DNA from: Polymyxa betae
Taxonomy: Eukaryota; Endomyxa; Phytomyxea; Plasmodiophorida; Plasmodiophoridae
Direction of reading: 5' to 3'
DNA: 42,314 bases
Assembly: GCA_003693705.1 (NCBI GenBank)
Contig: RBZT01000854.1
Location: 1 to 42,314, forward strand
Shown: piece after piece, positions 19,318-39,581 of the stretch
Position numbering within the stretch: position 1 is the first letter of the stretch
Layout: every line of letters starts with the position of its first letter
Notes under the pieces: generated by a model
Seen by the model: the letters and a program-made list of their open reading frames with translations, nothing else
Database searches by the model: none
What the model was told of the DNA's origin: nothing
Made by a program: the position numbers and the translations under genes

Positions 19318-19468
19318 AAAGGAATCCGTTAAAGAAACAGAACTTTGAACGTCACAGTTGAGGCAAAGCCAAACTTGTATACTATCCGCCAAAGATATCA
19401 AAAGATGGTCACATCATAATATAGCTTCCAAAGCTTGGTGGGATCTTTTATTGCATTTAGTTGAAGAT

Positions 19469-20499
19469 ATGAATTCACAAACTAACGAGCTTGACGACTT
19501 TGAACTGCTTGACAGTCTCATTAACCAGCGAGCGATGATATTGACTGTCGCTGCTACTGCAGCAGTAAATTCTGATGTTTATTTTGTCGCTCAAAAGATC
19601 GTAGTAGAAAACCAGCAAAATGCTGATCCTTCTCAAGGTGTTAAGGATCAGTTGGCAGTGTTAATCAGGAACCCATCCTGGTTTCATGTTATAACAAATT
19701 TCAAATGGGACGAGTTCGAAGAGTTATCAGCATTGGTTTGCCCAACAATTGCTTTGAACGCAAGAACAACGGGACAGCTGAGAGGAGTTCTTGGTCGTCA
19801 ACCAAAGCTATCTCCTCAGCAACGTTTGCTTCATTTTGTTCTTTATATGAAGCACGACAACACCGTTATTTTTGATACGCATGGCTGGAATTGGTCGAAA
19901 TCGTCTGCTTGTGACGACGCACTCTTCTTCGCCTCATGTATCAACAGCTCGTTTGCAGACGAACTTCGTTGTCCTACGGAGCTCGAGAGACGGAATTTGG
20001 CAACGAGGACAATTTTCCACAGGTGTCTAGTTTTATCGATCGTACTTTGGTTGATCTTCGCCGACCATCAGCAAGAAATTGTCTGATCGCCACCTGATGT
20101 GGTATAATGGTCGAAAATCCCATGTACTACGTTAACAATACTGTTATTGTGGACCACGATGGATTGTTTATTTATATTGATCCTGCGTATCCAGGCTCGA
20201 TTCACGATGTTAATTGTTTACGCCGGTCAGATCTATTTCAGAATTGGCGTGAGTATTTCGCTCACACAGACGAATATTTCGAGTATGTACTCGGAGATCC
20301 GGGTTACATAGGAGAGGAAATGTTCATCATGCATCGTATTCGTCCTAGCGCGTTGCTACCAGGGCAACAAATTGATGCTGTTGACGCATTTAATACAGTC
20401 CATGGTGTAATGCGCGTTCGTGTAGAATGGGGCATAGGAGGGATGAAACGGAAGTGGAAGAAGTTGATGAAAAAAATCGACGTAACTCTTCCGAAATGA
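19469..20499 (+). pseudogene. HARBI1-like transposase of E1, C-terminus lost
   Basis: DDE nuclease of the HARBI1 (DDE_Tnp_4) type. From MNSQTNELDDFELLDSL, an Ala-rich helix (ILTVAATAAV) is followed by FKWDEFEELSALVCPTI, QQRLLHFVLYMKHDNTV and HGWNWSKSSACDDALFF. The catalytic residues are visible as Asp in SFIDRTLVDLRRP (about 20040), Asp in LGDPGYIGEEMFI and Glu in RVEWGIGGMKRKWK. Frame changes near 20025 and 20085-20110, plus a TGA, separate D1 from the long 20107-20499 frame. After KKIDVTLPK the protein stops, where relatives continue with an LF.A..LTNF.HRRR tail. That tail is missing, replaced by foreign GC-rich sequence. Confidence 0.82.
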
Positions 20500-21540
20500 A
20501 ACGGAGAAGGCGTCACGTTTCCTGTCCACCAAATGTAATCAAAAATTCATTTTCGATCGCCTGCGCAATGTGGTAGCCCGTCTCGACTCCGGGCGCACGG
20601 CTGTAACGCTAGACAGCTATATGGGCCAACTCATCATGCTATTGATCGGAATGGGTATTACAGGCACCCGGTCGGGGCCTTTGGAACATCTTACGGCCCG
20701 AGTAACGGAGACGGTACACTCATCGGTAGCTCATCCGGTTATTCGTCTTACGTCTGTCTCTTTAGATCAGTACATGGCTTGAATGAGGCACCTTGACAAC
20801 AATGCTGAAAGAGATGGTCGAACTGACCCCTGGTTTGGAGTCTGATGATTCCGAAGATGACATCAATGGGCCACATCAGGGCGACGACGACATCGAAGAG
20901 GACCATCAATCCCAGATCGCAAAGTCACCTGCCAAGGAGTCACATCAGGGCGCCGCCCTCAAAGAGGACGATCAATCCCAGACCGCAAAGTCACCTGCCA
21001 AGGTCTCAGATGGCGAAGGGCATAGCGATCGCGAAGGCGATGACGCTAATGCTCACCCAGAGGACGAGCCATCGAGCATCGCCTACTCACCCTCGGACAG
21101 CTATCAGGAACAATCGCGTAGCATTGGGCCTGACAGCGATGTCGAACCTGACAAAATTGACATCAACAAGGATCAGGGAGTGCTTGCAGAGGAATTCAAC
21201 ACACGCCTGCACAGTCTAGGTTTATACAAGGATACGTTGACCAGGTCGAGCGTCAAAGACCTCCAGCGAGGCATCACGTGTTGGGTGGAATGGCGCCAAG
21301 CGCTCGAAGATCACTTTAGTTTTCGCCACTGGGGCGACGCCCTTGTGGAGGAAGTGCGCAAGCGCCGCCAAGAGATTACGACTGCTCTGGGCAAGCGCAA
21401 GCGCAAAAGCATGACACCAGCCCTGTCCCAGCTGAACAAACTGCCAGAGAGTAAACAGCCCAAGACGAGAGTGGTGTGCGCGGAGGAGTTTGTCAGGTTG
21501 GTGTGTGAACAACCGGAGGTCGGCGGCCCGCTTCTGCTGC
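20500..21540. other. GC-rich foreign block inside E1 with one open frame
   Basis: About 1 kb, clearly richer in G and C than its surroundings, lies exactly where the 3' ends of the E1 transposase and partner genes should be. It holds a 283-aa plus frame (20793-21644). The N-terminal half is acidic and repetitive (SQIAKSPAKESHQG), then WVEWRQALEDHFSFRHWGDA, a basic KRKRKS patch and VVCAEEFVRLVCEQPEVGG. Beyond about 21540 the frame runs into antisense partner sequence, so the real protein, if any, ends or ended before that. A second frame at 20570-20782 precedes it. I do not recognise either. It may be a captured host gene piece or another insertion; no terminal repeats or duplication were found. 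Confidence 0.5.
20872..21006 (+). repeat. Two tandem 66-69-bp units coding an acidic repeat
   Basis: Units starting CACATCAGGGCG at 20872 and 20941 share AAGAGGAC.ATCAATCCCAGA.CGCAAAGTCACCTGCCAAGG and keep the frame, giving two copies of a QSQ(I/T)AKSPAK peptide motif. Confidence 0.85.
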
Positions 21541-22273
21541 AGTGTCTATCGAACTCTTCTTGTGAGAGTAGATTTAGCTCTAAAGCTGCTTTGAGTTTAT
21601 CCAAGCGTGCTAAGTCTGAGCGATGGCGTAACAATTCCTCCTGACCTCGGCTCAAACTCGAAAACCTCTCGCTCATCGTTGCCAACGAGCTTGATTGTAT
21701 ATCAAGCATTCGACTTTTGGTCTTCTGGACCTTCTTCTCTATGCTCTCTTTTGCAAGGATTCTGGTCAGCCTTGGGCGTAATGTTTTCTTTTGCCACGGC
21801 AACTTTTGCCATAATCTCATCTTGTCGGGCAAGAATGTTTCGTTTGGCATGGTTGTCTGTTTTCTTGATCTGCTGAAGAAAATCGTCTGGCTGTAAGCAT
21901 ATTTTACCAGATTTATCATCTGCATCTCCAGTTTTCAGTTCCGGTTTTTTCGGAGATGTTTTAATTGGTCTTCAGAAATTCTACAATTTGGAAGTTCCTT
22001 TTTGTGTTCTTGGTAGATCTAGACGGCCACCGGCATCAACAAAACATGCTACTTTCTTACTCAATTTACCTTGGGCCAGATTTCTTTCGGAATCAGCTGT
22101 TTGCCCGCCTTCTTACGGCCGTTGGACCATTCGTTATAGCGCCTTCCGTGTGCTGCAAGGAGAATACTCAGCTTCACTGAGTTCATTGTATCGCGGAACT
22201 CTGTTCTCAAGCGTTTCGGCCCGGGCGTGGATGCTGTTGAAGGCAGAGTGACAGTGTCGAAGCTGCAAGCCAT
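21540..22273 (-). pseudogene. Conserved Harbinger partner protein (non-Myb), E1 copy
   Basis: Second gene of E1. Exon 1 from the ATG at 22273 to 22070 reads ILLAAHGRRYNEWSNGRK, KAGKQLIPKEIWPK. A 51-nt intron (22069-22019, GTAAAT..TCTAG) follows. Exon 2 starts IYQEHKKELPNCRISEDQLK. After a shift it continues KTGDADDKSGKICLQPDDFL and HAKRNILARQDEI. After another shift it ends SSLATMSERFSSL, QEELLRHRSDLARLDKLK and LLSQEEFD, then breaks into the GC-rich block near 21540, so the stop is lost. The same blocks occur in the same order in the E2, E3 and E4 partners. It converges with the transposase. Function inferred only: probably helps DNA binding or nuclear entry of the transposase, as Myb-like proteins do in other Harbinger elements. 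Confidence 0.75.
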
Positions 22274-22369
22274 GCTAAAAACATAAGATCTAGAGCAGAA
22301 TAGAATTCCTTTAAGCGAAAGAAGAATAAAACTGTATTATAACGGACGAAGTAAGGCAACGTGGGGTCC

Positions 22370-22505
22370 CAGGATTCAGTGAAATCTGGGTTCAAAGTTT
22401 TGCACCCAGCTTTGAGTGGCCCTGAAACTTTGAGCACAACTTTGACTATGACTGAAAGCAGGATGCCACACCCGCCCAACTTTGACCTTCAAAGATTGTG
22501 ACTGA
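22370..22505. repeat. CAAAG subterminal repeats at the E1 right end
   Basis: Words such as CAAAGTTTTG, CTTTGAGTGG, AACTTTGAGC, AACTTTGACT and AACTTTGACCTTCAAAG recur in both orientations between the terminal repeat and the partner ATG. The left end of E3 (38640-38790) has the same kind of array, so these are probable binding sites shared by the family. Confidence 0.65.
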
Positions 22506-22539
22506 TTAGACTTAATGCCTTTAACGGATTCCTTTATAG

Positions 22540-23941
22540 TTGAGAAAATTTCGAATCCATCCAAAATCTCAATCCTACTCATCAACCAGAAAGAACACCA
22601 TCGAACGTCCATAATCTCCTGGTGTCGCCGTTCAGCATCCAGTTGGATTTGCATTTGGAATCTCTGCATTTCTCCCCGAAATCAAGGTTCCGAAATCGCT
22701 TTGTCTCCGCCTAAAACTGCTCTGCCTCAGCACGATTTCGTTCTTAGCGCTTTCTCCGACCAAACTTTTGTCATTGAGAGTAGTGAATTCTAATCGAAGG
22801 CGTAAAACCTCAACAAGTAGGGCTTGGACATTCGAAACTGTCTGTTGTTGCATGTGGGCCCAGACTTCTTCACATAATTGAAGTATAGCGAAAAGAGCAT
22901 TCGGATAACTTTCTTTCGGAAACCGTTTCAACCTGAATCATATTTGCACGAGTCAGCACTCGCTCTTTGATGATTGCAAATTCATCCGGATTTATCATTG
23001 ACTCGACCAGAGCCCGACTGAAATTGCCCACCACATGTGGGAATCTCCAAGTTCTGACACCATATCGACGAACGCGATGATAGCTGCAGCGGTCATGCAT
23101 TCAGCGAAAATGGGTGGAGACGATCGATGTTCGAATGGAATATGGCCGACACCAATGCATAGGCTTTGTGTTCCGGATCATCAGCGGCCAGAGTGATAGC
23201 TGCGCGGAGCCAGGCGTGGACAGGCACTTCCAGATTCGACTGTTTCGGACCTGAGCGGAACCCGCGCCATTTTATGCAAAGCAACGAGGCCCTCTTTAAC
23301 TCGTTGTTTCTCTGGGCACCGGTTTGTTGCGGATCTTGATTCCCCCACCCATTGTACAAGGCATTTGCGTGGCGAGGAGTATTTAGGTGATTGAGAGCTC
23401 CCAAGAACATGATGCTCCTCAGCGAATGGGATGTGATGTTTGAATTCACATTCGTCTCGTTGCCTTTCATAGCGTTAAGTAGCTCTTGAGGATGTCGGTC
23501 AAATACTGTGACGCCTGCTCGCTTGTCGCGGCTTTTGGAAAAAGGAACGAGTTGCTCTGAAAAAAGTTCTGCTTGCAGAAACATTGATAAAAAACACAAA
23601 CCTCGGACTCGGATGTTAACGGGCCGCAAAACGATAGATGACGGAAGTACAGATAAAGCGGATCAAGAATCCAGTCGTTGATGCTGTATGCAATTGGAGG
23701 AATGTCCGTATGTGTCGAGGTTTGTTTCTCCAAAATTTAACGGAAATGAGCCCTGATTACATTTTATCCATATCTGGGCGCCAGCACAAACTTTTATCGA
23801 GTCGCTAAACCATAACAGAAACCCGGTCGATAACGGGAGAGTGCGGGTAGATAGTGTCGGCGCAAATGTCGCTGGCGCGGCCTCCTTTGATTGCTTGAAG
23901 TCCAAAGGGAGATGAGCTCTCGATCTTCCCAAGGCGATCAT
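22540..23941 (-). CDS. Unrecognised multi-piece gene ending at E1
   Basis: Not recognised. Reading leftwards, 23629-23093 is a 178-aa frame without low complexity (SLRSIMFLGALNHLNTPRH, VPVHAWLRAAITLAADDP). In a shifted frame it is followed by MTAAAIIAFVDMVSELGD, then 23100-22870 and 22931-22632 (CEEVWAHMQQQTVSNVQALL) and a charged helix at 22669-22540 (FQMQIQLDAERRHQEIMD). The frames 23941-23663 and 23733-23467 may be 5' exons. The piecewise structure suggests introns or decay. Harbinger E1 lies directly downstream at 22535, possibly inside its 3' part. It could be a host gene or the remnant of an unknown element. Confidence 0.4.
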
Positions 23942-24894
23942 CGCATTAGAACGATTTGGCGAGCTTATTTAAATGAGGACGCAGGCGCATTATTTGGTCA
24001 GGGGCAGACCCTTCTCCTGGCGACGCTGGCTATTCAGTTTAGCTGCCTTGCTTAATCAGGTCGAAAAGAAGTCGCCCAACAGAGATTGAAGTTGTGACGT
24101 CTGAACTGCAAATTTCTCCAGAAAGAACGTTTTAATCGATGACAAATATGCTTTTAGAGCAATAGAGAAATGCTGAAAGGAATCTAAGTTTTAAAGACTC
24201 AAAACATCCTGGAGGTTTTCAAATGTAGCTCATTAATGAGCCAATACATGAACTGTCCCACCAGCTGTACACCGTCTTTTCCTTTCAACTATTCTATCCT
24301 TATATCATCATCTTTTCAGATTTTTTTCCCGGAAACTGAATTTTGAATGGTTAGAATGGTTTCAAATTAGGGTTTAGGGTTTGCAAATGTCAAACCTGCT
24401 TGACTGAGGAAATGAATTTCAATGAATGCCGGCTGTGTGCAGCTGAGCAGTGGACGATTTTTTCTTCAGCAAATGAATTGACAGTGTGCCGTTTTCGTTG
24501 TCACCCCCTTCATGACCATCCTGAGGCCTCCCGCTGCAAAAATTTCAACATCCTGGAAAAGGCTGGTATATGCTGATTACCGCTCGTTTTGAACGGGTCT
24601 ACCGACGCGGCATTCGGATTGCATATTTAACAAGCAAGACCAGCGACATCGGCCAGGAATGAGCAGGACAAAATGACAATGGGAATCCTCGATCACTGTG
24701 AAGGTCCCGCCAAAGAATGTTCACGACTGTGAGGAGTCCGCGCCGCAGACTGTCTACCGTGGAGAGTCTCCGCATTCAATCCAATGACCAGTTTCCCTCT
24801 ATTGATGACCCAGTGAGTGTGACGGTCAGCGAAGATGGTTCGGCATATTAGGTCTGGCCGATCCGGTTTATTGAACAATAATACTTATTATTCT
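23942..24894. other. No gene recognised
   Basis: Mixed-composition sequence. Two plant-telomere-like TTAGGGTTTAGGG words at about 24369-24380 are too few to be meaningful. Only short frames occur (for example 24878-24693 minus). Confidence 0.4.
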
Positions 24895-25311
24895 CTGTAC
24901 AAAGATCAGCAGGAGTATTTTCCGCTGGTCGACAGCAACCTGAGTTCGATCTTCCCAAACATGGTCTGCCGCAGTAGGTAATTGCTTCCCTTCATCCCAT
25001 CAGATTCCAGAGCTTTCATTCAAAGACTTGAAGTCTTTCCAATCCTTCTTTAGCTGTTTTTGTAGAGTTAGAATAACGAATTTTGATAGAAGGAAATTTC
25101 GAGTACATTTCAAGCTTGATTTTCAGCTAACCATTTTTTGTACGTGACAGAGGACTTTTGATTGAACTTGTCCATAACTGCTTTCCAAGCTTCTTTTTTG
25201 AACCCGTTTCCACCCACTTGACTGCTTGGTCTGATTCAACATTGCCCTGGCGAGATAGGTTTCCATCGTGGGGTTGAAGGCTGCCTTGGCGCTAGACGCT
25301 GAAGCTGGCAT
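24895..25311 (-). pseudogene. Myb/SANT-like protein (Myb_DNA-bind_3 type)
   Basis: Broken DNA-binding protein. From the ATG at 25311 it reads AAFNPTMETYLARAMLNQ. One frame over it continues GGNGFKKEAWKAVMDKFN and SSVTYKKW. After a probable short intron (acceptor ACAAAAACAG) it reads LKKDWKDFKSLNESSG, stop, WDEGKQLPTAADHVWED. This nP..E.yL...ML.Q, GFkkeaW..v...Fn, lk.d...l..ssG..WDe..k...a...vW order is that of Myb/SANT-like proteins of the L10-interacting type. Lesions: a shift near 25220 and a TGA where GF is expected. It is divergent from, and only about 20 bp away from, the truncated E2 partner, so it probably belongs to another, now missing, element. Confidence 0.65.
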
Positions 25312-25333
25312 GGTCGTTCAAGCAATGATCCAG

Positions 25334-25935
25334 CAGCAATGAAATGTAAGGTTGCTGAGGTCATCCCAAAAGACATCTGGCACAAGGTTTCCAATTGCAA
25401 CCGGGTTTCATGCGAATCTCGTTTAGCAGTTAATGACGATCGATATAGGCTGAATACAAGAAGGAGTGTCCCAATGCAAAATCGGCGACAAAGTTCAGAA
25501 GGCGCATACTCGTGCCGAAAAACTTGGTCTCCAAACTGGAGATTCCGACGATGCATCAGGTAAGGTCTCCCTTCAGACATCAGAAATGCTGAAAAATTTC
25601 ATGGCTGGGAATCCTCATGATAAACGCAACCTTCTCGTCGAACAAAAACAAAATTATGAGTGGATTCGCTTCCAACAACGAGAATCAGCCTGAAAGCAAA
25701 GGCACTCATCCCACTCCAACAAAAAAGTCCGAAAAATAAAGCGCAAACACTAACCGAGCAGGCCTAATCCATTGCCAAAATCAGCGAGAATTTCACACAG
25801 ACTCGTCAGTCGCAGGAGAACTTGATCAAACGTTAAACTGATCTGGTCCAATTGCAAAAATTAAAGCAGGCGCTTGAGCTTATTTTGCTCTTACAGGAGG
25901 AGTTCAACGTCAAGGCAAGAGCTTTGCTGTTGTGA
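25334..25935 (+). pseudogene. Conserved Harbinger partner (non-Myb), E2 copy, N-terminus lost
   Basis: The sequence starts abruptly with EVIPKDIWHK (25334-25386); the HYNSW/RKKAGKQ block seen in E1 and E3 is missing. The intron at the conserved position begins GTTTCC at 25387, but the next exon reads ATA TAG GCT where E3 has ATA TAT GCT, a Tyr-to-stop change. Downstream come AEYKKECPN, LQTGDSDDASGKVSLQTSEM and NPHDKRN, then after a gap SIAKISENFTQTRQSQENLI, stop, TDLVQLQKLKQALELI and LLQEEFNVKARALLL to the stop at 25933-25935. Clearly homologous in order to the E1 and E3 partners. It faces the E2 transposase. Confidence 0.72.
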
Positions 25936-26078
25936 CCAATATATCTACTAAGCATTCGTTTGTCGATATGGAAATTTACGGATATATTCTGAAACGTCCC
26001 AACCAGTATTCAGCAAACTAGCCTCTTCCAGCTAAGCAGTCATATCAACTCAACGACGTTGTAGAAGGTTTGTTAAAA

Positions 26079-27094
26079 TTACTGCACTACGGAAAAGATG
26101 AGGAAAAATCGGTCGCGGGAGGATTCAAATGTCCGCATGAAAATCTTCCATTTGCGTTTGAGGAGCAATGCCCCATTCGACGCGATCAGATATCCTGCAT
26201 GCATTGCATTGAATGCATCGATGATATCTACATCGCCGTTTTCGGGTATTTCCCTGCGTCCACTCCGGATCATTATAAACATCTCCTCGCCGAAATAGCC
26301 AGGATCGCCAAATATATATTCAAAGTAGTCACAGTGGTGAGCGAAAAATTGTCGCCAATTTCTGTACAGATCAGACTTTCGCAGGCAACTTACGAAATGA
26401 AACGATCCTGGATACCCGGGATCTATATGATAACTAGTCCACGATGATCAATAACCACGGTGTTGATTAGGCAGTACATAGATTTTTTGAAGATGGTGGG
26501 CCGCGTGCGACCTCCCATTGACGGGCCTCCACACGAGGCCGGCGGCCGCGTGCGGGCGAGCACGTGACCGGCCCTGGAGTACCAGATGATCTATGATACT
26601 AAATTCACTTTTGTTTTGACCACTTATCGTTGGCTCTGAGTTCTGAGTAGCTGGATGGCGAACGCTCGTGATGCATCATCTTGGGCAAGAGGGAGCGCGA
26701 ACGGTTCGGCGGACAATCAAAGTCCGGACTCCGCGACAGAGAATATGCCGCAGCCGAGCCGCACTGAACCTTCCCAGAACCAGTCAACTTCTCAAGATTT
26801 ACGCCGATTGAACCAAAACTTGTAGCTCTCGTCGCTGGAAGGGCGCCGTATAGGAATCAGGGTGCCATCAACAAATCCTAGGCAGCCGTCGAATCCAAGA
26901 ATGGTTTTGGCGAAGAATCTTCGTTTTGATTCCGAGTGCCAACGAAGCTCATCACCCAGGACTGCATTGATGCAGGTGGATACGAAGAGTACGTCATCAC
27001 ATATCGATGGTTCGGCCCAGTTCCAAGTAAAGGCATTCAGACACACAGTGTTATCGTGCATCAAATACAGAACCAACAGCAGAAGGCGTTGTCG
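26079..27094 (-). pseudogene. HARBI1-like transposase of E2, N-terminus lost, with insertion
   Basis: DDE transposase fragment beginning at a junction with hAT 2 near 27094: RRQRLLLLVLYLMHDNTV, then TWNWAEPSICDDVLFVS and GCLGFVDGTLIPIRRP with the first Asp, and KFWFNRRKS at 26795. A 309-bp insert follows. It resumes MYCLINTVVIDHRGLVIYID, then HCDYFEYIFGDPGYFGEEMF with the second Asp. The expected VEWGIGG Glu block is not readable: the frame 26282-26079 goes AMHAGYLIASNGALLLKRKW, so the Glu is lost or shifted. About 100 N-terminal residues present in E1 and E3 are absent. Both ends of E2 are gone, and no terminal repeats could be found. Confidence 0.75.
26486..26794. mobile_element. 309-bp insertion in the E2 transposase
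   Basis: Flanked by AGATTT at 26480-26485 and 26795-26800. Removing it and one AGATTT joins NRRKS to MYCLINT in frame, so the boundaries are right to within a base or two. The left half is very GC-rich (GGCCGGCGGCCGCGTGCGGG); the right half is not. No inverted ends, poly-A tail or tRNA-like boxes were seen, so the class is unknown (SINE-like or MITE-like). Confidence 0.75.
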
Positions 27095-28151
27095 ACGCAT
27101 CTTTACAACTTGAAGCGAGCCTGAGCACATACTCGAAAGGGTAGCCGTTTGGATAGTAGGCAACAGCTTTCCGAGCTTTGCTTTGGTGGCAGCAAAAATA
27201 TTCTTCACGAGCAAATGCATCATACCATGGCTCGCACACCCTGAAGAACATTCCTGGATATTTTGATTGCTACAATTTCCAGGCTAGATTGTTGGTGGCA
27301 GTATCATCGGTAACTTCACCACAGATATTGAGACCAAGAGCGGTTTGGCTATCAATGACACGGCTCAGATCGTCAGCGATGAACTGAGCCGTGTGACCTC
27401 TCTTTTTCGATGTTGGCACCAATTAACATGTATTTCCGAATCGTTTCGTTCTTGATATTCGACCAGCCGTCGGTACTCAAACAATAAAACGTCTTAGAAA
27501 TATGCTATTGATCCTGAACTTGCTTCTGGACCATTGCAAAACATTTTTGCAATAGAGTGCCAGCCAGTTTCTTGCAGTCAGGGAGTCCGAAATCTGGACG
27601 ACATAGCTCAAAATGCTTTCGTAAATTTTCTTCTTCGACACGTTGGAAAGACTTCCCAGTGACGTAATAGTGCATGGCGATAAAAGGATTGATTTTGTAT
27701 TAAATCCTTTTTGTGAGGGCCGGGAGCATGAAGCTTTGAATGGAGGACATCTCTCCGCCTCGCGAGTGACTCGAAATTGGTTCACACTGTTTTCTCTTAG
27801 AGAACAAGGAGACAAACCATTCAGGACGTGTGTTAGCCTCCAGCAACATCATGAACTTCACAAACGGTTTACATTATTAAGATGAGCTTTAACACGTTCC
27901 GATTTACGACGGTAGGTGACACAAGTTTTGCAGTATTTACAGGTAGCAGATTGTGATTCCTGTGGTTCCATGCAGTCAGTAAATAACGTCCAAACATCGG
28001 CGGTTTTCCGTTGTCCTCGTTTAGGCTCTGGGACGACGGTAATTTCAGCGTGTTCTTCATCATGATCAACAGCGCTGTCGTGCGTAATATCGATGGAGGC
28101 AGCTTGGGCTTGGTCCGTCATTGGCATTAATGGTGTGCCAGAAGCGATCAA
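27094..28151 (-). pseudogene. hAT transposase 2, N-terminal half
   Basis: From the ATG at 28151, an acidic leader is followed by a BED finger (VWTLFTDC, ATCKYCKTCVTY, RVKAHLNN). One missing base there restores the zinc Cys as HLNNC and continues KPFVKFMMLLEANTRPEWF. Downstream frames give YYVTGKSFQRVEEENLRK, LCRPDFGLPDCKKLAGTLL, LSTDGWSNIKNETIRKYM and GEVTDDTATNNLAW, then CASHGMMHLLVKNIFAATKA and YPFEYVLRLASSCKDA. All are hAT blocks in family order. It then ends at a sharp junction with the E2 Harbinger transposase near 27094. The RNase H C-terminal part and dimerisation domain are missing from the window. Several shifts and stops make it non-functional. Confidence 0.82.
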
Positions 28152-30520
28152 ACCGACAGCGAAAACGGAAGCGCCCTATCTTCGTCGCGGACTTTTGGCA
28201 ACAACCCAAAAAAACCGATTCTCCTAGCAATTGAGAAATGGGTTTTATTAATAAATCCCAAAAAATCCCAACAAAACACCCAAGCTCTGCCAGCCTTTAA
28301 GCATACCGACATTCCACGCTGTGCATTTTCTGTCAGAAGTCTTATATCGTCGTTGTCTGTTGGGGAAAAAGGAATTCAGCACAGAATTTGGCATTAACGG
28401 CACCGCAGAAGCGCTGAGTGCTTTCCGAAATAGTTGATTTATCAACTCTTCCCCAGCATCCGTTTCGTCTAGAAACTGAAGTATCCAACTCTCAGGAAAT
28501 GCAACCAGATTATGAGTTCGGTTCATTCCGCGATCCCTGCAGCTGGTTGGATTTCGAAGTGACCGCTAGGAGAAAACGCTCCTGTTACGGGTATTTTAAA
28601 CCTCGCGGGGTTTATTACTGCCATATTTAGCGTTAGAAACAGCTCCACCGGTGGAGATGCTCTTAAAACCGGTGTCCGTGCCAAAATCACAGAGTTCTAG
28701 TGTTCCCAGAGATGGGATGTGCGGCTTTGGGGCACCGGGGCCGGTCACCTGAAATAATGGTTGATCTCGCATTTCTTTCTGTCGCTGATTTTCGGGCTGT
28801 GGCCGGGTTTAAAGCCAGCTTGTCATTGCCGCCTGTGGACAATAAGAGGGTGCAGCTGGTAATCCGATGTCTGTAAGCTCAAGGTTAAAATCTATAGGGC
28901 CCGAATGACAGGCTTAATACTGGTGGATCTTTGGTGCTGTCGGAAAACAGCTGCATTGTAACATATTGCCCGGTGTACGGCTCGAGCATTGCGAAGGCCT
29001 GCCTCTTAAACTAATGGATGACCCCGGGTAATGGTTATGTCCTGATTATGTCTCACTCGTGCCAGATTCAGGTATCACCCCGAAGTATTCCAGTTGGATT
29101 AACCGGCTGTACTCAGACTTATTGTCATTCTGGATTCTTATTATTTTTTGTGCAGATTAAGTAGTGTGCTTCCATTCAATCACAGTTGGTGAATTGAGGG
29201 CAAATTGGGATAGATACCGAGATGAAGCATTTGCTTCTGTAATTAACATTATATTAATTAGTTTATATTGTCAAAAATAATACGTAATGTACAGAAATGG
29301 TTACAAACTCGAATACAGTTCACATCCTTTTCAAGAGATTCACATTCGTTCTACCTGCTTAAATCCTTATCCTGCCATTCCATGCGACTTTTGAAACCTG
29401 CGAATTTAGGCATTGCAGTGCTTTTGCAAGCGAATTGAATCTGCAAATACGTGCACAGCCTTTACAGGCATGCGGAATCTGCGAATCAACGCACTTGTTT
29501 CCTGCGAAATTATGCGTCGTTAGGCTTTTGTATGCGGATTCAATCTGCCAAAGCACGAAATGTTTCCTGCGAAAGTATGAATTGCCTGCTGTTCCGACCG
29601 TGGGACTATCGGTTTATTATAAACTATCCCTCCATTCCTAATAATCTAAATCAGCGTCCCAACGTTTTCCGTTGATATAGCGTGAGATAGAGACAGCATA
29701 TTAATCTGGTGGTTGAAATGTAACTGCGTGCTATTAACAGCTGATAAAGCTGATGGTTTGAAAAATTCTCATAAGTCGCCGCAATCATACCATAATCGCC
29801 AGAAGTCCCGGAAATGGAAAATTTCAGTCTTAATACGGCATCCTTGATTAGCTCACAACTATCAGTTTTTTACGATGAAGGATAATTTATTGGATGTCTG
29901 CGGGGCACAATAATTAGCCTGGTCTCTGCAGTTTTATTGGGTGTGGGAATTTTGGCTTTATGGGAGTGGAATTTTGATTTTGATTTTTTTGAGAAGTTTG
30001 TTTTGTCATTTTTTGCTTTTGAAATTCGCCGAAGAATCCCATCGGGTCGCACTACTGCTACCGATATTATTTTCTTTTAGATTTGGTGTTAGGAGCACTT
30101 CTTTCAACTCAAGCTGTCCAGTAGTTCCGACTATATCCTTGTCTCCAATCCCGGTCCATTTCTCTTCAGAAACATTACGCATTATGGTTGTCTGTCCATT
30201 AGAGTTTTAAAGTTGTGAACTGAGGCCGGCTCGCTGTCCATGCTAAGAGCATCCGCTATAAACTATCCCATCATCTTAATTTGTCTGTGCGGTTGTAGCC
30301 GAATGTGCAATTCCCTAGTTTGGAGCAAGAGCGTATGCATTATTCGTCTGGATTTTGATTTAGATGTTTTTTTGCTGTCTTCGATTTCATGATAAGTATT
30401 TCGAGCCTTGTTTGGATATCTACAATTTTCGTTTATAGGCTGTCCAAAGGGGTGGGCCACTCATTTTTTCATTCATTCCAAGTGCCCATGCGCTCCTGTC
30501 GGGTGTAATTTACACATTAT
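28152..30520. other. No gene recognised; repeats only
   Basis: The region holds the upstream side of hAT 2 and then about 2.2 kb without a supportable gene. A 13-bp word TATAAACTATCCC occurs at 29618-29630 and again at 30257-30269 in the same orientation. CTGCGAA/CTGCAAA-type words recur at 29395-29590. CTCCACCGGTGGAG at 28644-28657 is a perfect palindrome, followed by ATGCTCTTA, which resembles a Harbinger-like end (GAGCAT next to TTA), but no partner end was found. Confidence 0.4.
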
Positions 30521-30802
30521 TCAAAATGTGTTCGCATATGCCAAGATCATGTTTAGATTTGTCTGTCTCAGCCGCTTGTCTTCTTGAGCAAGAATAGCGG
30601 TCATCTTTTGTAAATCTTGTGACTTATTTTCATCTCCTCGAACATTCAGAGCGCTGATGGTGGTAAAGTAATTAACTGTTATTTTTTTCATCATCACTAC
30701 CATCGCCGTCAACTCATCGTTAAATTTTTCAAAATCCTTACGTCTATCACCGATTGTAATCTGTTGGCGACGCCTGTTAATCAGGCTCTGAAAGAATCGA
30801 TG
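30521..30802 (-). pseudogene. Coiled-coil C-terminal fragment of an unknown partner-type protein
   Basis: The minus frame, open without a start from about 30802, reads QSLINRRRQQITIGDRRKDF, EKFNDELTAMVVMMKK, SQDLQKMTAILAQEDKRLRQ and ends NLNMILAYANTF. Strongly helical and not low complexity, so probably real coding sequence cut off at its 5' side. It resembles the tails of SANT-type partner proteins in general character only. It belongs to no bounded element here. Confidence 0.45.
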
Positions 30803-30901
30803 TTGTCGTCATCAGCATTGCTTTTTATGCTGAAGAACACTTCCAAAATTTACTCAGCGATGGCTCGGCATCTTGGCTTGGAAGACTAGTAAAGTTTTTC
30901 C

Positions 30902-30986
30902 ATGCAGGGACGGATGCCTCCCTAGTATGAGGATTGAAACAATTATGCAGGGACGGACGCATCCCAGGTATGCAGATTGAAACAAT
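30902..30986 (+). repeat. Two 42-bp direct repeats next to E4
   Basis: ATGCAGGGACGGA..ATTGAAACAAT occurs at 30902-30943 and 30945-30986 with a few mismatches, ending 10 bp before the E4 left end. Confidence 0.85.
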
Positions 30987-31232
30987 ATTGGATATTAAAG
31001 AAATCCGTTTATTGGTGGAACTAAAGGTTTTCGCCCGGGGTTTTTCCTAATCTCAGCATGAAAGTTTTGCGCTGCGCAGTCCGTGAAGAACTAAGCATGG
31101 AAGTCTGGCTACCTCCAAAATCCTGCATGAGAGAGTTTGATACTGAATTTTGTATTGGATCGTTGAAGTCTACAATCTGACTCCTTCCAACATAGTTGTT
31201 TGTTTTTTCTCGGTCAGCCCAAGTTATCATCT

Positions 31233-31924
31233 ATGTCGCTCTCATCAGATGACGGCTCCGTCAAGGTTGTTGCAAGCTTCGAACAGGCTTCGAAGCGCTC
31301 CAAGCGCCAGATAGTCGAGAGTTTACATTTAAGCACCTTGCTGGCTTCCTATTACAGCCACTTCGCCAAGTACTCAGAGAAAAAAACATCACACAGTTGA
31401 TCCCAAAATCTGTTTGGACCGGCGTCTATAAAGATTTCGTCGAGGTTCACCCGAATTCTGGCTTTCAAGAAGAAACGCTAAAAGTTCGAGTTCGCGATGA
31501 GCTGAAAGCCCAGAAAAGCGGGCGGTCTGATGAAGCTAACGGGAAAGCCGAACTACAGGCCGGTTCAGTGCTTGAGCAGTTGAAGATGACACCGGGTCAT
31601 GCCAAGAGGAATGTCATTAAGGAGCGAGCCGCGATCGTGTCAGGTCAAAGCCTGCAGGCAGTCCCAGCTGAAGAGGTTACTGAGGAACAGGAAAACAAAG
31701 AATCTATGAAGGCACCGGGAAAGGACCAGATCACAAAAGCTCAGATGCTCGCCACACAATCTTCTTCGATTGAAAAAATTTCTCAAGAACGTACTGCGAT
31801 GCGAGAAGAGCGTCAAACCCTGAACCGCGAGAAGTTTATCAAAACCAAACTCGCTAACCTTCAGACAAGGTTGAAGATGGGTGCCATAACACCTGAAGAA
31901 ATGAAAGCTGAGGTGAAAAGTTGA
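31233..31924 (+). CDS. Conserved Harbinger partner (non-Myb), E4 copy, intronless
   Basis: From MSLSSDDGSVKVV, a basic segment (SKRSKRQIVESLHLSTLL) and YYSHFAKYSEK lead to an A7 run at 31380-31386. There a one-base change continues the frame as ITQLIPKSVWTGVYKDFVEV. The rest is open: RVRDELKAQKSGRSDEANGK, PGHAKRNVIKE, DQITKAQMLATQSSSIEKIS and a C-terminal helix ending EEMKAEVKS. The block order equals that of the E1-E3 partners, but the intron found after PK in E1 and E3 is absent here (PKSVWTGVYKDF is continuous). With the homopolymer resolved it is a complete protein of about 230 residues. No known domain could be assigned. Confidence 0.75.
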
Positions 31925-31956
31925 TCGAATAAATCGAACTGACAGCATTACAAAGC

Positions 31957-33114
31957 TTAGAAATCCCCATCCCATCCGTAATCATCTTCACCGCCTCCCC
32001 TAATGTCTTCATAGGCCATATCCATTCTTCGTCTGTGAATGAAATTGGTCAGGATACAGCCCGCTTTGAATAGATACTGCTATTTCTCTTTTGTAGAATC
32101 AAACCGCTTCATGAATCATTTCCATTTACGTTTCAGTCCTCCTATACCCCATTCAACTCGAATTCGCACGCCAGCGTGCATCTTGTTGTACTGATGGATG
32201 GCTTCTAATTCTTCAGGATCATCTGGGAGCTCTCTTTGGCCAATCCGGCGCATTATGAACATGTCCTCTCCTACATAGCCAGGATCGCCTAAAAGATATT
32301 CAAAATGTTCATCTGTGTGCGTAAATAATCTCTCCAGGATCGGTCCAGTTCCGATGATCGCAGAATGTTAACATCATGTAATTTGCCAGGATATCCCGAA
32401 TCAATATAACTGAAAAGGCCATGATGATCGACGACAACTGTATTATTGAAACAGTATATCTTCTTGCGTCCGTTAAACCAAGTTACGATGATCAGGGTTG
32501 CCGTAAGGTCTGCGAATTTCACAAAGCGTTCCATCAATGAAACCGATGCAGCCAGGAAGGGCATTGATCTTCTGGGCTAATAGTAGTCTTTCGTTATTGT
32601 TTGGCCATCTTATTTCATTCGATGCCGACATACAGATACAACTGGCTATAAATATAGAATCGTCGTTGACAGAACTTCGAGACCAATTCCATAGAGAAGA
32701 CTCCAATGCAGCCGAATTGTCATGTTTTAAAAACATGACGAAATTGAGAAGACGCTGCTGAGGCGTCAGTTTCGGAGGCCTGCCGGCGTTTGAACGAATT
32801 GTACCCGTTGCGGGCGAACATTACGATTGTAGGGCAAGCTATTTGACAGAGCTCCTCAAATTCGGAAGCAGAGAAATTGGTAACGGTTCGGAACAGATAG
32901 GGGTGGCAGCGATGGTTTTTAAATAGTCGCGAACTCCAGATCCGTGATCCACACATCGCTGGCCGGAATCATCAAGTTCCTGGGAAATAAAAAAATTTAA
33001 CGAAGTTGACGCAGCCAGAGCAGCCGCTTGAGCAGCTAGCATTATCAGTTCTTCTTCATATTCGCTATCAGAACCGCTATCAGATCCGCTATCGCTCGAG
33101 TCGGAAGACTCCAT
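31957..33114 (-). pseudogene. HARBI1-like transposase of E4
   Basis: From MESSDSSDSGSDSGSDSEY, an Ala-rich helix and VTNFSASEFEELCQIACPTI are followed by MFLKHDNSAALESSLWNWSR. GCIGFIDGTLCEIRRP carries the first Asp, then VVVDHHGLFSYIDSGYPG, LLGDPGYVGEDMFIM with the second Asp and RVEWGIGGLKRKWK with the Glu. The tail reads FMKRFDSTKEK, LFKAGCILTNFIHRRR and GWDGDF to the stop at 31957-31959, the full family ending that E1 and E3 lack. Lesions: a shift near 32950, one near 32740, one near 32490, one near 32290, and TGA and TAG codons in the tail after KRKWK and after TKEK. The full DDE triad is present. Start chosen at the Met before the acidic run. Confidence 0.8.
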
Positions 33115-33283
33115 TCCAGCCAGAATGATTATCACGATACACACGAATCACTACGGATGGAGAGGCTGCGTGGAAATTTCAGCATCACTCATGCTGATAT
33201 TTAATAATTTGCGGATACCCTATAAACTCAGCAAGAGCAAGAAATCTGCGTGCCAAACTCCGTACGAATTAACGGTTTTCTTT

Positions 33284-35338
33284 ATTCTATGGCTCTAATT
33301 TAGGCATATCTGGCTATTAATCAACTCCGATGAATTTCTGGATTATTAAGGGCTTGAATACGCAGATAACTAAATCACACGAATCTTCGTTATATCTTTA
33401 TGCAATCGTCTCAAGCTTGAACAACAGAAAAGCTTTTGATGATTCTTTGCTTACAAATGTGCTTACGGTAAGTACTCTTGCTTACCAATCAAGTTGTCGC
33501 TTGGCATCATTGCCAATGATAGGCTCCGATGAATGAGGTGGCCATCGTCATTTTTGGCAATTATGTTTCCAACTTGGTCGTTTCTGGTACATAACTGCGA
33601 TACTGAACCAAAAATGAATCGTCATTTCTCTCCCTTGAATTCCTGAATTTCAATCTTGCTGTGAATGGGACATTCATAATTGTCTTTTGAATTCGCTATC
33701 GGTGATTGATTTTGTTTTCTAGTTTTGAGGAGTCGAATCTTTTGTCGCGTTGTTCTCTTAATTTCCTAATCCAATACGTCATCATGCACTGACTCAAGTG
33801 GTCTCTCAGTTTCGATTGAATGGCTCGGATCCGAAGATGACATGAGGGGACTCTTAATATGTCAAAAGAGATACGAACGATGGTGAGAACTCAAGCAACA
33901 AAAGATGACGTTGTGTAATACAACGAATAGTGGGACTTGCCTCCGTGACTGTCGGCTATGAGTGAAGGGGCTGCGGAGGCTGTTCTTTGATATCTGCTTT
34001 AACAATGTTGAAGGCCAACGATGCATTCATGATCGTGCCTGTAAATACTATGCCAATTCTGGCCACATCGTGAGAGGCTGCTCGATATCCAGTCACTAAT
34101 CGCGACGCGTCGTCACTGACATGGTCATCGGCGTTCGGCGACAACTGGTAATAAAGGCAAGCCATAACAAATCCACTAAAAGGTACACCATTCTTAGATA
34201 GCTTGTCTATGGGCTCAAGCGAGCGCGCGTCACACCCATCAGTCGGAGATCACATCTTCTTGGCAGTGCCCTGTAAATGCAGGAGAGTGCAGGAAGCCAG
34301 GAACCCACCAAGTTTTGATTGACTCCAGAATCCGGGCGAACTTTATCGTCAACAACTTTACAATCACCAAACAAATCGTATTAGAGCAATTAAAAGCGCC
34401 CATCCCTGCTCGGGATGAGGACAGATTGCTAATTTTCAGAGTCTCTTGAGAACTCAGATGGTAACTGTCAGGGCCAGCGGAAACCGGGCATCGTTATATG
34501 GCACCATGTTCGTGATCGATTCATCAATGAATTCTGTTAACTTGGGTATGAAAAGGCTTCGCTCAGTCAACAAGGACATGTTCTAGAAAATGGAACAGGT
34601 GCTTTCCCATCCCAACTCGTGAGCCGGCGGTCCATGAGGTCTATCCACCCTTTGGAAGTCCCCGAAAAGAGTGATGGAACTCTTCTACGACTTCAAGTGT
34701 TTGCGCTGGTGCTCGAGAGAGGACACGCCGACAATCAGCCAAAGCATCGCTCCTTGACTGCCCGAGAATTCTGAGAATTGGATCCGATACAACTTCCAAT
34801 CTCATGATTAACAGCCTATCGGTTAAAGAGGGCCCCGCTTTAACAAATTACAATAACGCAATGCCTTACAATGATTTTTCGCCACTCCTGCTCACCATGT
34901 GGTGGCTACGCCTACGAACAAGGGAGGGAGACCGAGGATAAGCGGCAGTAAAAGCAATGATCTGTATTAGATCGGGTTCGGTTGGATATTGGAAAGACTG
35001 GGAAAGAAAGAAGCAATAAAATAAAAAATAGTGGAAATATGAGTGCTAGATGTCGGTCCCGACACAACACTAGGTGCCTCGGTCCGGTTTGTAGAGTAGG
35101 ACGGTTGCCTGAAACCTTGTATGGTTATAGTGTGTTGCAAATTATTTCTTTAATAGAAAGAATTATCAGAGCTTGGAAAGAGCTTGGTTGAAGTGCGTGG
35201 CGTCTACGTTTTGGGCGTCTCCTTATTGAGTAGCTTTGACTGTGGAGCGCATTTTCCGTCCCCTTAACTTTCAGGAGGTCGCCGATCTCCTTTTCAAAAA
35301 GGAGATAAAACGCCGTCATTTCGGAACGCAAAAAGGAG
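33284..35338. other. No gene recognised
   Basis: About 2 kb with only short frames. A 69-aa minus frame (34165-33956, with VARIGIVFTGTIMNASLAFN) is the least unlikely but has no neighbour or motif support. A clear boundary for the Harbinger-type element that starts its transposase at 35339 was not found on this side. Confidence 0.4.
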
Positions 35339-36576
35339 ATGGTTCTCTTTGAAGAAGTCGACGATGTTTTGTCATCGGATTCGGAAGATGACGTTGTTAT
35401 TTTCCACGTTATTCTTGGTAGTCTCCAAGCGCCAATGACCATACTCCTGGCAGATGGACGACGATCGAAAAGGGCTAGAAACGAGCGATTGACTTTCCGG
35501 AACTGAATATGGGAGCAAGTTTATTCTTCCAGTGGTGATGGCTGGTTTCATGCTAATCTGCGAGTGAATCGTTTCTCGTTTCAATATTTTGCTGCCGATA
35601 GAATCAGTACCATCCGAACTCGGCATCAGCTTGATTACAGCTACGAACGCTCGCGTAGATTACCAAATGAAGCTTGCAATGACATTGGCCTACCTTGCAC
35701 AGTCTTCTGGGTTTCAGACGACTGTTAGCCTCTTCGGAGTGGCGAAAGCACAGCTGTTGTCCTGATTAACAACATAATGGATGTCTTAGAACGATCGCGG
35801 GCAGTATTATTAAAGTGAGAGCGAATTCGGTCGCATTCCCTAATATTCCACTAATAAATGATACTGTAGATGCCCATGGCTGAATGGACAGCTGTAGCTG
35901 ACGGTTTCGACAAAATAAAAGGTTATCCCGAAGTAGCTGGTGCAATTGATGGGGCTCTAATAGAGGTTGAACGTCCCCAAAACGTTGAAGTTTACGTACG
36001 ATTTGCAAAGACAAAGGCTGATATCTGGACCCAAAATGCTTTGCTGTTCAATAGATGGTATTGCAGGAAAAATGTTCCTGCAATCAATATGCAGGCGATA
36101 GTCGATAGCCAGGCAAGATTTTTGGACTATTCAATGCGACCAGTATCCTGTAGCGACAAGAACCTATGGAATGTGTCAGCGGTCGGCCAGAACATCGCAC
36201 AGATTATTCCTCGAGGAATGCATCTTGTAGCCGACGCAGGTTATACTTTATCTGATGTAATGATGGTTCCATACAGCATTACAGAAGAAATGCCCAAAGA
36301 TGAATTTAGGTTCAATTACCGTTGACTCTCTCGTAATTGATAGGGTCGGGAGAAAGGGAATTTATCAACTATGAGGGAGTATCAAATATTCCAATAAAAA
36401 TGCGGACGCATTTATTAGAATGCGTTCCCACAAATTTGTTTTGGCATATGGAGTTTCGCTATTGAGCCGGTGCAAAAGCTACGGACGGAATTTGCGGAAG
36501 AGTTGCTAGGGTTTCGGGTCAATAGGCTACGTCTCTCGCTCTCTGCTGCTGAATCTGCTTGAATCACGCCTTTGAA

Positions 36577-36905
36577 ATGGACTCATGCGCTGTCTGTCGT
36601 AACGCCATGCAATCATCTCATAGGTGACGTCTTAGAGAACGGCATTGGGATATGTTATCACAATTGATTCGAGTACTAGATGTCCGGACTGTCGACGTTC
36701 TGTCCATGCTTTTTGCGGACTTCCAGTCGGAGAGGAAGGTCATGGGCAACAAGTTTGGTGCTCAAAAGAAGGCACATGTGATTTAGCTTGCAGCGATTCC
36801 ACTGATTTCGAAATGTCTACTACGTCAGTGGATTCCAGTGATGTCTTTCCTGAAAACAACCGGAGCTTATCTATTCTGTCGCTGACACCACAGCATGCCA
36901 TCTGA
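36577..36905 (+). pseudogene. Cys-rich zinc-finger frame in the pogo element
   Basis: MDSCAVCRNAMQSSHR from the ATG at 36577 is followed, in a second frame from about 36645, by GYVITIDSSTRCPDCRRSVH and AFCGLPVGEEGHG, then VWCSKEGTC and a Ser-rich tail. The pattern C-x2-C..C-x2-C..H-x2-C..C..C looks like a PHD/RING-like zinc-binding module. It lies 5' of the transposase on the same strand and may be a leader exon of it or a separate small protein. A shift or intron near 36630 is needed. The role is unknown. Confidence 0.5.
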
Positions 36906-38639
36906 AATCCGGTTCTGGGCTTACGGAACAAATTCGTTTGAGCATTTGGCGTTATCATAAAGAGAACAAACAGATGAAGCAACAGGAAATTGTTGAAAGA
37001 ACGCCACGGAGTTTCAGATTCGCTCTTTATCTAAATCTGCCGTATCGCGGATTATAAAATAAAGTTGAAGTCTGAATCTGCGAAGTCTGGGAACTTAACC
37101 TATGAGCAAGTGCAAAAAAATTTACGAACGCTCTCAACAAAAGCCGAAGTTGACGCAAACTGGTTTAGCAAAATGGGCGAGAGACACATTTAACCTGTCA
37201 AACGCACCAAGTCAATCGACAGTTTCCAGCATTGTAAGCCAGAAACGCTCCCCTGGCGCTGGATTGCCGAAAAAGGATCTGAAAAGAAAACGTGCTGTGA
37301 AGTATCCGGAACTTGATCAAGCTCTGTATGAGAGGATTCTTCGATGTCAGGAGAGCCGAGTCTGTCTCTCGTGGCAGTTGATTCGAAACAAGCCCGGAGA
37401 TTTGCGGATTTACTGGACATTCCTGAATCAAAGAAAATTTCGTTTTCTGATGGCTGGGTGGAGAAATTTCTTTCAAGAAATGGTCTCAAGAGCGTGCTCT
37501 AAAACTCCGCGGAGAAAGTGGATCGGCTGATGTTGAAGCCATTGAAGATGCCATGATAGAATTGCTCGCTACTGTACGTCATTACAATCCGGCTGACGTT
37601 TTCAATCAGAATGAGACCGGACTTTTTTACGTATGGCTCCTGATAAGACAATTGCTTCTAGACAATTGGAAGGAATGAGAAAGAACCAAACCCGGATGAC
37701 TGTTGCGCTTTGTGCAAATGATGATGGCACTAAAATCATGGACTTGTTTTTCATCGGGCATAACCAAGAGCGTTTCAAAACAAGACACGAGAACGATTAA
37801 GCCTGTATTACCGAGCGAATGGCAAGGCCTGGATGACCGCAACTTTGTTCCAAGAGTGGCTTCAAATATTTGATAAGAAAATGAGGCTGAAAGGTCGTCG
37901 GATACTTCGGTTGTTGGAAAAAGCTCCTTCTCGTGTGATCAAGAACATCTCGATGGCCAATAGTCCTCCAAACGCCACCTCACGGTTTCAGCCGATGGAC
38001 CAAGGATTATTGCAGCTGTCAAGAAAAGGTTTCGGTCGTTTCAATTGGATCATTGCTTGGTCCGATTCCATGCTGGCGAATGCGACATTAATAATGGTCG
38101 ACATCCTGCGGGCGATGAGATGGTGCAAGATCGCCTGGAGTATCATCACACCGACAACCATCAGAAACTGTTGGCATCATATCGGACTTATCGCGCGAAG
38201 TGGAGAAACGTTAATTATGCCAGTGGATGAAAACGGATCAACAATTGATGCAACACTTGTGGAAAAAACTGATCAGCTCAATGTCGACTCTCCGATCCCA
38301 TTGGACGAGTCGATCCAAATGGATGATCTCGCTGTCGATAAGTTTTTGGATGAGATTGACGATTATGACTTGGGGACGATGGTGTTTGTGGAAGGACATG
38401 AGCCCGAAGAGGATCACGTTGGGGCTGACGGCCCTGAATCAGCACAGCCTGTACCACGTATGGCATCCTACAGCTTTGATGAGAAGGTGAACGCTTGGAA
38501 AGAACTGTTCAGCGCCAATCCGGAGAAATATATTGAAGGAATGGAAGTTCTTCGACCAGCTCTGATTGATATTCAGTATGATGAGAAGCTGGACAAGCAG
38601 CAGACGCTTATACAAAGCACAATAAACCTATCAGTAAAA

Positions 38640-38795
38640 GGTGTCAAATCTTGGTGAGTCACACAGCTTTGGGGCCAAAGCTTGGCGAATCGGCCTCCTG
38701 CTGCCCGTCAGTGCCAAAGTTTGGTTCAAAGTTTAAACCCCAGTCAAAACCTGGGCCCCAACTTTGACCATGCTTTGACGTTTGGTATCACCTGT
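38640..38795. repeat. CAAAG subterminal repeats at the E3 left end
   Basis: CAGCTTTGGGG, CCAAAGCTTGG, CCAAAGTTTGG, TTCAAAGTTT, CAACTTTGACC and GCTTTGACG recur in both orientations between the terminal repeat and the partner ATG at 38851. The right end has CAAAGTTCGG and CAGCTTTGCTCGTCAAAG. This matches the E1 right end. Confidence 0.65.
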
Positions 38796-38850
38796 TTTGT
38801 AATAAACATATCATATTTCACTGTGCATATTATCGCCTGGCTTTGTAGTT

Positions 38851-39576
38851 ATGAGCGAGTCTACTGCAAGCATTGAAGAGGTATTGGTTTCGCCTCCGAT
38901 AAAGGCGAAAACCGCTGGTCGTGATACGATTACGTCCTTTAAGATCAGCGTGCTGATGTCGTCCCACGGAAACCACTATAATTCGTGGTGTTCGACCAGG
39001 AAAAAAGCTGGCAAACAAAATCCCCGAAGAGATCTGTCCTAAGGTATGAGTTCCCTGACGTGGTAATATTGGTATAGCATTTTGTAGATATATGCTGATT
39101 ACAAGAAAGACTGTCCTGATTGTACTCTATCTGAGGAGCAGCTTCGCCATTATATTCGCGTCGAAAAGTCCCAACTGCAGACCGGCAACGCGGACGATAA
39201 ATCTGGTAAGGTTGCTCTTCAGCCGGGAGACTATTTCCAAGAGGTGGTCAAGAAGTCAAACGGCCATGCGAAGCGAAATATTATAGCAGAACAAGATCGG
39301 ATTGCCAGCACGATTCCGGTGAAGAAACCGAAAGCGCAAACGCCGGTAAGCAAACCCACCAGCATTCAGCCCACAAAGGCACAGATGCTGCATACTCAAT
39401 TATTATCTATCGCCACTATGAGTGAGAATTACTCCTCGATACGCGATCCGCATCAGGAGCTTCTTCGCCACATGGCGGATTTAACTAAACTGGAGAAATT
39501 GAAACAAGTTCTCTCGTTGGGGCTGATCGAACAGGATGAATTCAACAAAAGAGCTGCTGCTCTTTTGGAAGTGTGA
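38851..39576 (+). CDS. Conserved Harbinger partner (non-Myb), E3 copy
   Basis: The best preserved copy with an intron. Exon 1 reads MSESTASIEEVLVSPP, then FKISVLMSSHGNHYNSW and CSTRKKAGKQ. One fewer A in the A4 run at 39017-39020 continues as IPEEICPK up to 39043. The intron is 44 nt (39044-39087, GTATGA..TGTAG). Exon 2: IYADYKKDCPDCTLSEEQLR, LQTGNADDKSGKVALQPGD, NGHAKRNIIAEQDRI, SIQPTKAQMLHTQLLSIATM, QELLRHMADLTKLEKLKQVL and EQDEFNKRAAALLEV, stop 39574-39576. The intron sits at the same place as in E1. The likely architecture is an N-terminal helical DNA-binding-like block, a middle DD.SGK.xLQ block, a basic HAKRN block and a C-terminal coiled coil. The function is inferred from its fixed pairing with the transposase. 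Confidence 0.8.
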
Positions 39577-39581
39577 CGCCT

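Follow-up and report, generated by a model that had tools for sequence, protein, structure and literature searches.

A second gene convergent to DDE_Tnp_4 transposases in Polymyxa betae probably encodes a much-changed version of the usual DNA-binding helper of Harbinger-type elements

Four elements in the window carry a convergent accessory gene

The stretch of DNA analysed here (the window) is contig C356 of Polymyxa betae, 42,314 bases of a 24.4-Mb assembly in 541 contigs, and mobile elements are abundant across it. Four copies, E1, E2, E3 and E4, each pair a DDE_Tnp_4-type transposase gene with a second gene, here called the accessory gene (Table 1). A preliminary description of this DNA had placed a second gene opposite the transposase in four copies; all four were present and all were convergent (tail-to-tail). 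All four copies are broken. Ends could be read in E1, E4 and E3, and in each of these both genes lie between terminal inverted repeats (TIRs), the transposase being truncated in E3, so that the accessory gene belongs to the same element as the transposase. No convincing ends were identified for E2, and the C-terminal catalytic part of the E3 transposase was not found within that element.

A search with exon 2 of the E3 accessory gene recovered the other three copies (E1, E = 9e-18; E4, E = 5e-15; E2, E = 1.5e-10 for the better of two pieces). Together with 46 matches in the genome, these values place the accessory family far beyond chance. The 46 matches and a shared intron also ruled out chance or antisense open frames as an explanation. 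The E1 and E3 accessory proteins are about 33% identical. The ordered blocks reported earlier do mark a real family, but exact patterns do not bear out every block in every copy: RKKAGKQ and LLRH were found in E1 and E3, KK(D/E)CP in E2 and E3, TKAQML in E3 and E4, TG(D/N).DD in E1, E2 and E3, and HAKRN in E1, E3 and E4. IPKEIWP was exact in E1 only, with variants in E2, E3 and E4.

The accessory gene has two exons in most copies examined. Exon 1 encodes a basic PPxKKxK-like start, which by eye resembles a nuclear localisation signal (NLS), and helix 1 up to ..IWPK; exon 2 encodes the remainder. The intervening phase-0 intron lies between ..IWPK and (I/V)Y..YK and spans 44–57 bp where measured. 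Its donor is GT in 15 of the 16 copies shown and GC in one, and its acceptor is AG in all 16. This intron accounts for part of the frame damage originally ascribed to the second gene, although E1 to E4 are broken nonetheless. E4 reads through at this place without an intron and is therefore assigned to an intronless subfamily. Copies on contigs C355 and C145 lack the intron there, and the public relatives P0007–P0010, P0018–P0022 and P0024 likewise have no insert, their gene calls being taken as published.

The gap between transposase and accessory gene is unusually wide in E1 (0.8–1.0 kb). It holds an open frame of 285 amino acids (20787–21644, plus strand) whose end overlaps the E1 accessory gene antisense and which had no Pfam match at E 0.01.

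Table 1. Positions of element features and candidate binding-site clusters in the window
Feature	Position	Strand	Remarks
Element E1	19318..22535		17-bp perfect TIRs; 3-bp flanks match, ATA/ATA
E1 transposase (DDE_Tnp_4)	19349..20499	+	Open pieces 19349-20086 and 20098-20499
E1 accessory exon 2	21536..22018	-	Broken frames
E1 accessory phase-0 intron	22019..22069	-	GT..AG
E1 accessory exon 1	22070..22336	-	Holds helix 1, RKKAGKQ, IPKEIWPK
CAAARYT cluster, accessory end of E1	22393..22484		Six sites, two overlapping; densest 250 bp of window
E2 accessory remnant	25330..25929	+	Start approximate; broken frames; HDKRN replaces HAKRN
E2 transposase remnant	26118..27160	-	Convergent with E2 accessory
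Element E4	30997..33283		TIRs imperfect; 3-bp flanks match, ATT/ATT
E4 accessory (intronless subfamily)	31233..31924	+	Single frame break ~31388
E4 transposase	32083..33009	-	Frames broken; convergent with E4 accessory
Element E3	38624..40387		TIRs AAACCTATCMGTAAAAGG; 3-bp flanks match, AAT/AAT; sits inside pogo-like element
CAAARYT cluster, accessory end of E3	38665..38766		Five sites
E3 accessory exon 1	38806..39043	+	Frame change ahead of IPEEICPK
E3 accessory phase-0 intron	39044..39087	+	
E3 accessory exon 2	39088..39576	+	Open, 162 amino acids
E3 transposase	39585..40271	-	N-terminal part only

Accessory genes are linked to transposases across the genome

Matches to E3 exon 2, merged with 49 obtained with P0007, resolved into 50 distinct places in the genome. 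To the question whether homologues always lie within 2 kb of, and convergent to, a DDE_Tnp_4 gene, the answer was yes for 32 of these places (31 within 1 kb) and no for the others, where at 2 kb the transposase was divergent (one place) or absent (17 places). These counts combine 134 merged Pfam places with five found by tblastn or by hidden Markov model (HMM) in fetched loci; Pfam places alone give 27 convergent at 2 kb and 26 at 1 kb, and are a lower bound, 150 of 220 candidates having been scored and 150 of 151 matches used. Stretches no more than 1 kb from a Pfam transposase match make up about 1.3% of the genome.

Of the 46 matches, the best 30 yielded 26 distinct copies, which were fetched with 1.5-kb flanks; 20 of these copies had a same-clade convergent transposase. 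In 15 of them the two genes were 150–252 bp apart, and the gaps in the other five were 12, 474, 475, 476 and 818 bp. On partial inspection, the places without a transposase on C320 and C535 looked incomplete or broken. The family includes 35 public proteins, many of them partial; no relatives were confirmed in IMG/VR contigs or GTDB genomes with queries from the intronless subfamily.

Element ends share 3-bp flanks and subterminal repeats

Both ends were read in eight elements (E1, E3, E4 and copies on C380, C328, C213, C133 and C459). The 3-bp flanks matched in all eight, being AAT in five, ATT in two and ATA in E1, and none showed the TWA target-site duplication of canonical PIF/Harbinger elements. 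The TIRs started with AAA in seven of the eight; GAA stood at the left end of one. Empty sites were sought for two copies, E3 and the one on C213, by joining their flanks, and neither gave an uninterrupted paralogue. Read as a gypsy-type reverse transcriptase, the C213 flanks keep an open frame with either one or two copies of the triplet, and therefore decide nothing on duplication. Thus the evidence for a 3-bp duplication is the flank agreement in all eight elements.

Usable TIRs were obtained for three of seven loci examined from another DDE_Tnp_4 clade of the same genome. These elements (L055, L059 and L066) had flanks TTA, TTA and TAA and TIRs like GAGACTGGTTCAAG; only L055 of the three also has a Myb match.

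In five E3-type elements, CAAAGCTTTG-like words abound in the subterminal 150–230 bp and are rare or absent inside, although these elements are related and their word counts are not independent. The consensus CAAARYT occurs 66 times in the whole window, and its two highest densities per 250 bp fall at the accessory ends of E1 and E3. Because E1 is distant from E3, clusters in both exceed what recent copying would leave.

The accessory gene follows one transposase clade and is under selection

In a tree of 35 transposase rows, all 18 accessory-linked rows fell in one clade (support 97/95), which also holds L063, near a contig start, where no accessory gene was found. Of the six rows with a Myb-like neighbour, five grouped in a separate clade, and L069, on a very long branch, joined the accessory side. 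The tree omits duplicate loci and rows with fewer than 90 aligned residues, among them E3, L019, L024, L025, L028 and L032, and its Myb labels come from a small HMM built here, with two weak matches (E 0.004 and 0.001) among them.

Seven accessory copies gave 21 pairs, 19 of which had a proportion of synonymous differences (pS) of 0.73–0.93, at or near saturation, and a nonsynonymous proportion (pN) of 0.21–0.51. The two remaining close pairs had nonsynonymous-to-synonymous rate ratios (dN/dS) of 0.48 and 0.52. On these values, purifying selection has maintained the accessory gene for a long period, although the majority of the copies observed here are decaying. Long selection as part of the element, proposed earlier, thus agrees both with these values and with the linkage to one transposase clade.

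The accessory protein has a predicted N-terminal three-helix domain

Pfam scans gave no family above its cut-off, returning weak, unrelated names only, or SHOCT below cut-off; this accords with the earlier view that no named family has these blocks. A simple SHOCT protein, suggested by the C-terminal hairpin, was rejected (PF09851 at best 23.1 bits, E 6e-5, in P0024, with a cut-off of 27 bits). A sequence search of PDB gave a single chance match (E 0.86). In the accessible text of the literature found by family-name search the block set is not described, which is weak evidence only.

The N-terminal domain is predicted to form a three-helix bundle. Its best solved neighbour was the GT-1 trihelix domain in both models, and further Myb domains stood in its lists of structure neighbours. 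A profile comparison with the Myb set of this genome was in register but not significant, the spacing of W, I, Y/F and LK following Myb_DNA-bind_3. The C-terminus is predicted to form a long helix and a short helix, a coiled-coil hairpin that is among the best-modelled parts. For the hidden helix-turn-helix or SANT fold raised in the preliminary description, this N-terminal bundle is thus a candidate, and the claim there that the second gene is unlike the Myb-type accessory is probably wrong. The models suggest instead that the accessory protein is probably a much-changed version of the usual DNA-binding helper of such elements.

Comparison with known two-protein elements

In the accessible parts of PMC2836001 and PMC9710019, the second proteins of Harbinger elements are classed as Myb-like (SANT/trihelix and MADF are further names for the type) and as required for transposition; the zebrafish protein binds to its element and directs the transposase into the nucleus. 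According to part of PMC9710019 the gene changes rapidly, and BLAST has difficulty in detecting it. Like PIF/Harbinger ORF1, the accessory gene provides each element with a single small protein in addition to the DDE_Tnp_4 transposase, with a probable three-helix SANT/trihelix-type domain, a basic NLS-like stretch and fast sequence change. Unlike ORF1, it has no Myb, SANT or MADF profile match, has blocks of its own (TGDxDD, HAKRN and TKAQML) and ends in the coiled-coil hairpin; one subfamily has a conserved intron, and the flanks are mostly AAT/ATT rather than TWA. The usual first tryptophan of Myb domains has presumably been lost.

The Pangu group of PHIS transposons is another of the closest known systems. 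As described in part of PMC4482050, it has ANT duplications and a second open reading frame (ORF) without known motif, although the discussion in that paper nevertheless lists Pangu among groups with Myb/SANT ORFs; Repbase Harbinger2 is said to be Pangu (PMC12730594, in part). Seven of the eight elements here have 3-bp ANT flanks, and their second ORF likewise shows no detected motif. Unlike Pangu, their TIRs begin with AAA and not AG or GG (usual, not defining, in that account), and the E1 flank is ATA; the comparison uses the published description of Pangu.

The other DDE_Tnp_4 clade of the same genome shares the transposase type and lies partly beside Myb_DNA-bind_3 genes. It differs in the Pfam-recognised Myb domain, the separate transposase clade, the TIRs and the flanks. 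Among 13 Myb_DNA-bind_3 matches the transposase was convergent at three, on the same strand at one, divergent at one and absent within 2.5 kb at eight. The comparison of the two clades suggests that, within one genome, the type of accessory protein is coupled to transposase clade, TIR and target site.

Proposed function of the accessory protein

We propose, with a probability of roughly two in three, that transposition is carried out by two proteins and that the product of the second gene is the DNA-binding one, with a diverged Myb/SANT/trihelix-type N-terminal domain. This protein would recognise the CAAARYT repeats clustered immediately inside the TIRs. The accessory protein, which begins with an NLS-like basic stretch, would bring the convergently encoded DDE transposase into the nucleus and place it onto the element ends, while the coiled-coil hairpin would probably serve self-association or transposase contact. 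Both proteins would then be needed for transposition, and the element would move by cut-and-paste, duplicating 3 bp of the target, mostly AAT/ATT.

Several observations weigh against this proposal. Even with the limit set at E 10, the Pfam scans returned no Myb, SANT or MADF family (most matches above 0.1 are removed by the HMMER filters), so that the clear profile match to Myb or SANT which the preliminary description had set against its own claim was not found. Foldseek matches were not significant, and structure-neighbour Z values below 8 leave the Myb/trihelix kinship of the N-terminal domain unproven. The CAAARYT sites are uneven: E4 has two near its accessory end and E3 two at its transposase end, three lie round the transposase-side end of E1, two of them outside the element, and a three-site cluster at ~17877–18025 is away from any recognised copy. 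Many gypsy-type reverse transcriptases have a spacing that fits two triplet copies, which is mildly against a true duplication at C213. Finally, co-expression of the two rice Ping proteins left localisation unchanged, according to parts of PMC2836001 and PMC9710019.

An alternative that we consider unlikely is a new, non-Myb accessory protein, in which the three-helix domain belongs to another fold class or is a protein-protein module, the coiled coil acts as a scaffold and the transposase itself binds DNA. The lack of a Myb profile match in any Pfam scan and of a significant Foldseek match would fit it, as would the quality of the model for the C-terminal helical hairpin. It accounts less readily for the first rank of GT-1 among the structure neighbours of the N-terminal domain in each of the two models, for the Myb_DNA-bind_3-like (though not significant) residue spacing, and for subterminal repeats, which suggest a binding partner. 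We think it quite improbable that the protein is mainly a regulator of its own element, a repressor or titrating factor for which the repeats would be promoter sites and not part of a cutting complex. In E1 and E3 the CAAARYT clusters do sit immediately 5' of the accessory gene, and the transposase ends have fewer of them, but the gene is tightly coupled to one transposase clade, and both proteins are required in the Harbinger elements studied in the accessible part of PMC2836001.

Harbinger-type elements need two proteins, and the accessory family adds an unnamed branch to the second of them, a protein often missed because its sequence changes fast. Its intact members are small (the public relatives P0007, P0008 and P0009 read open), and together with the candidate binding sites they allow the role of that protein to be tested directly.

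Solo accessory genes

Three intact accessory genes stand alone. Two lie in tandem on C425 (532 kb; C425:286900–288900, L073, at 143–897 and 1231–1933) and one on C204 (271 kb; C204:214900–216300, L074, minus strand, 339 amino acids spliced). They have the N-terminal domain and a coiled-coil-like end in common with the rest of the family, and their phase-0 intron (50, 52 and 49 bp) occupies the same position; the HAKRN and TKAQML blocks are missing. No DDE_Tnp_4 match fell on either contig among the 150 listed (150 of 220 candidates scored), and a transposase HMM with two TIR patterns found nothing in the 2.0 and 1.4 kb fetched round the genes (best E 0.18). The C425 pair is 38% identical (pS 0.77, pN 0.42). 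In the genome, the first C425 gene finds its tandem sister as next match, and the C204 gene finds one that is 35% identical.

The solo genes look like host genes kept by selection, which makes domestication of the accessory protein testable. The least probable explanation of the accessory gene, that elements captured such a host gene as cargo dispensable for movement, draws on these three intact genes with the same intron place on large contigs, but one transposase clade has retained the gene through deep divergence with synonymous sites saturated, and the accessory-protein tree leaves the solo genes on long branches whose placement is uncertain. Tentatively, and at somewhat less than even odds, we suggest that the accessory family, not the transposase, became host genes, the C425 pair and the C204 gene being transposon-derived DNA-binding regulators, and that in elements the change of accessory accompanies the change of target site from TWA to AAT/ATT.

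Neighbouring elements in the window

A Myb_DNA-bind_3 gene remnant (24949–25125, minus strand) lies just left of E2 and is probably part of another element. A transposase piece of the other clade (35870–36325, plus strand) neighbours a Myb-linked row in the transposase tree. The pogo-like element interrupted by E3 (37099–38657) has DDE_1 and an ABP1-type N-terminal domain. A transposase of the Plant_tran family (PF04827), which we take to be another Harbinger-related lineage, lies at 6875–8227 on the minus strand.
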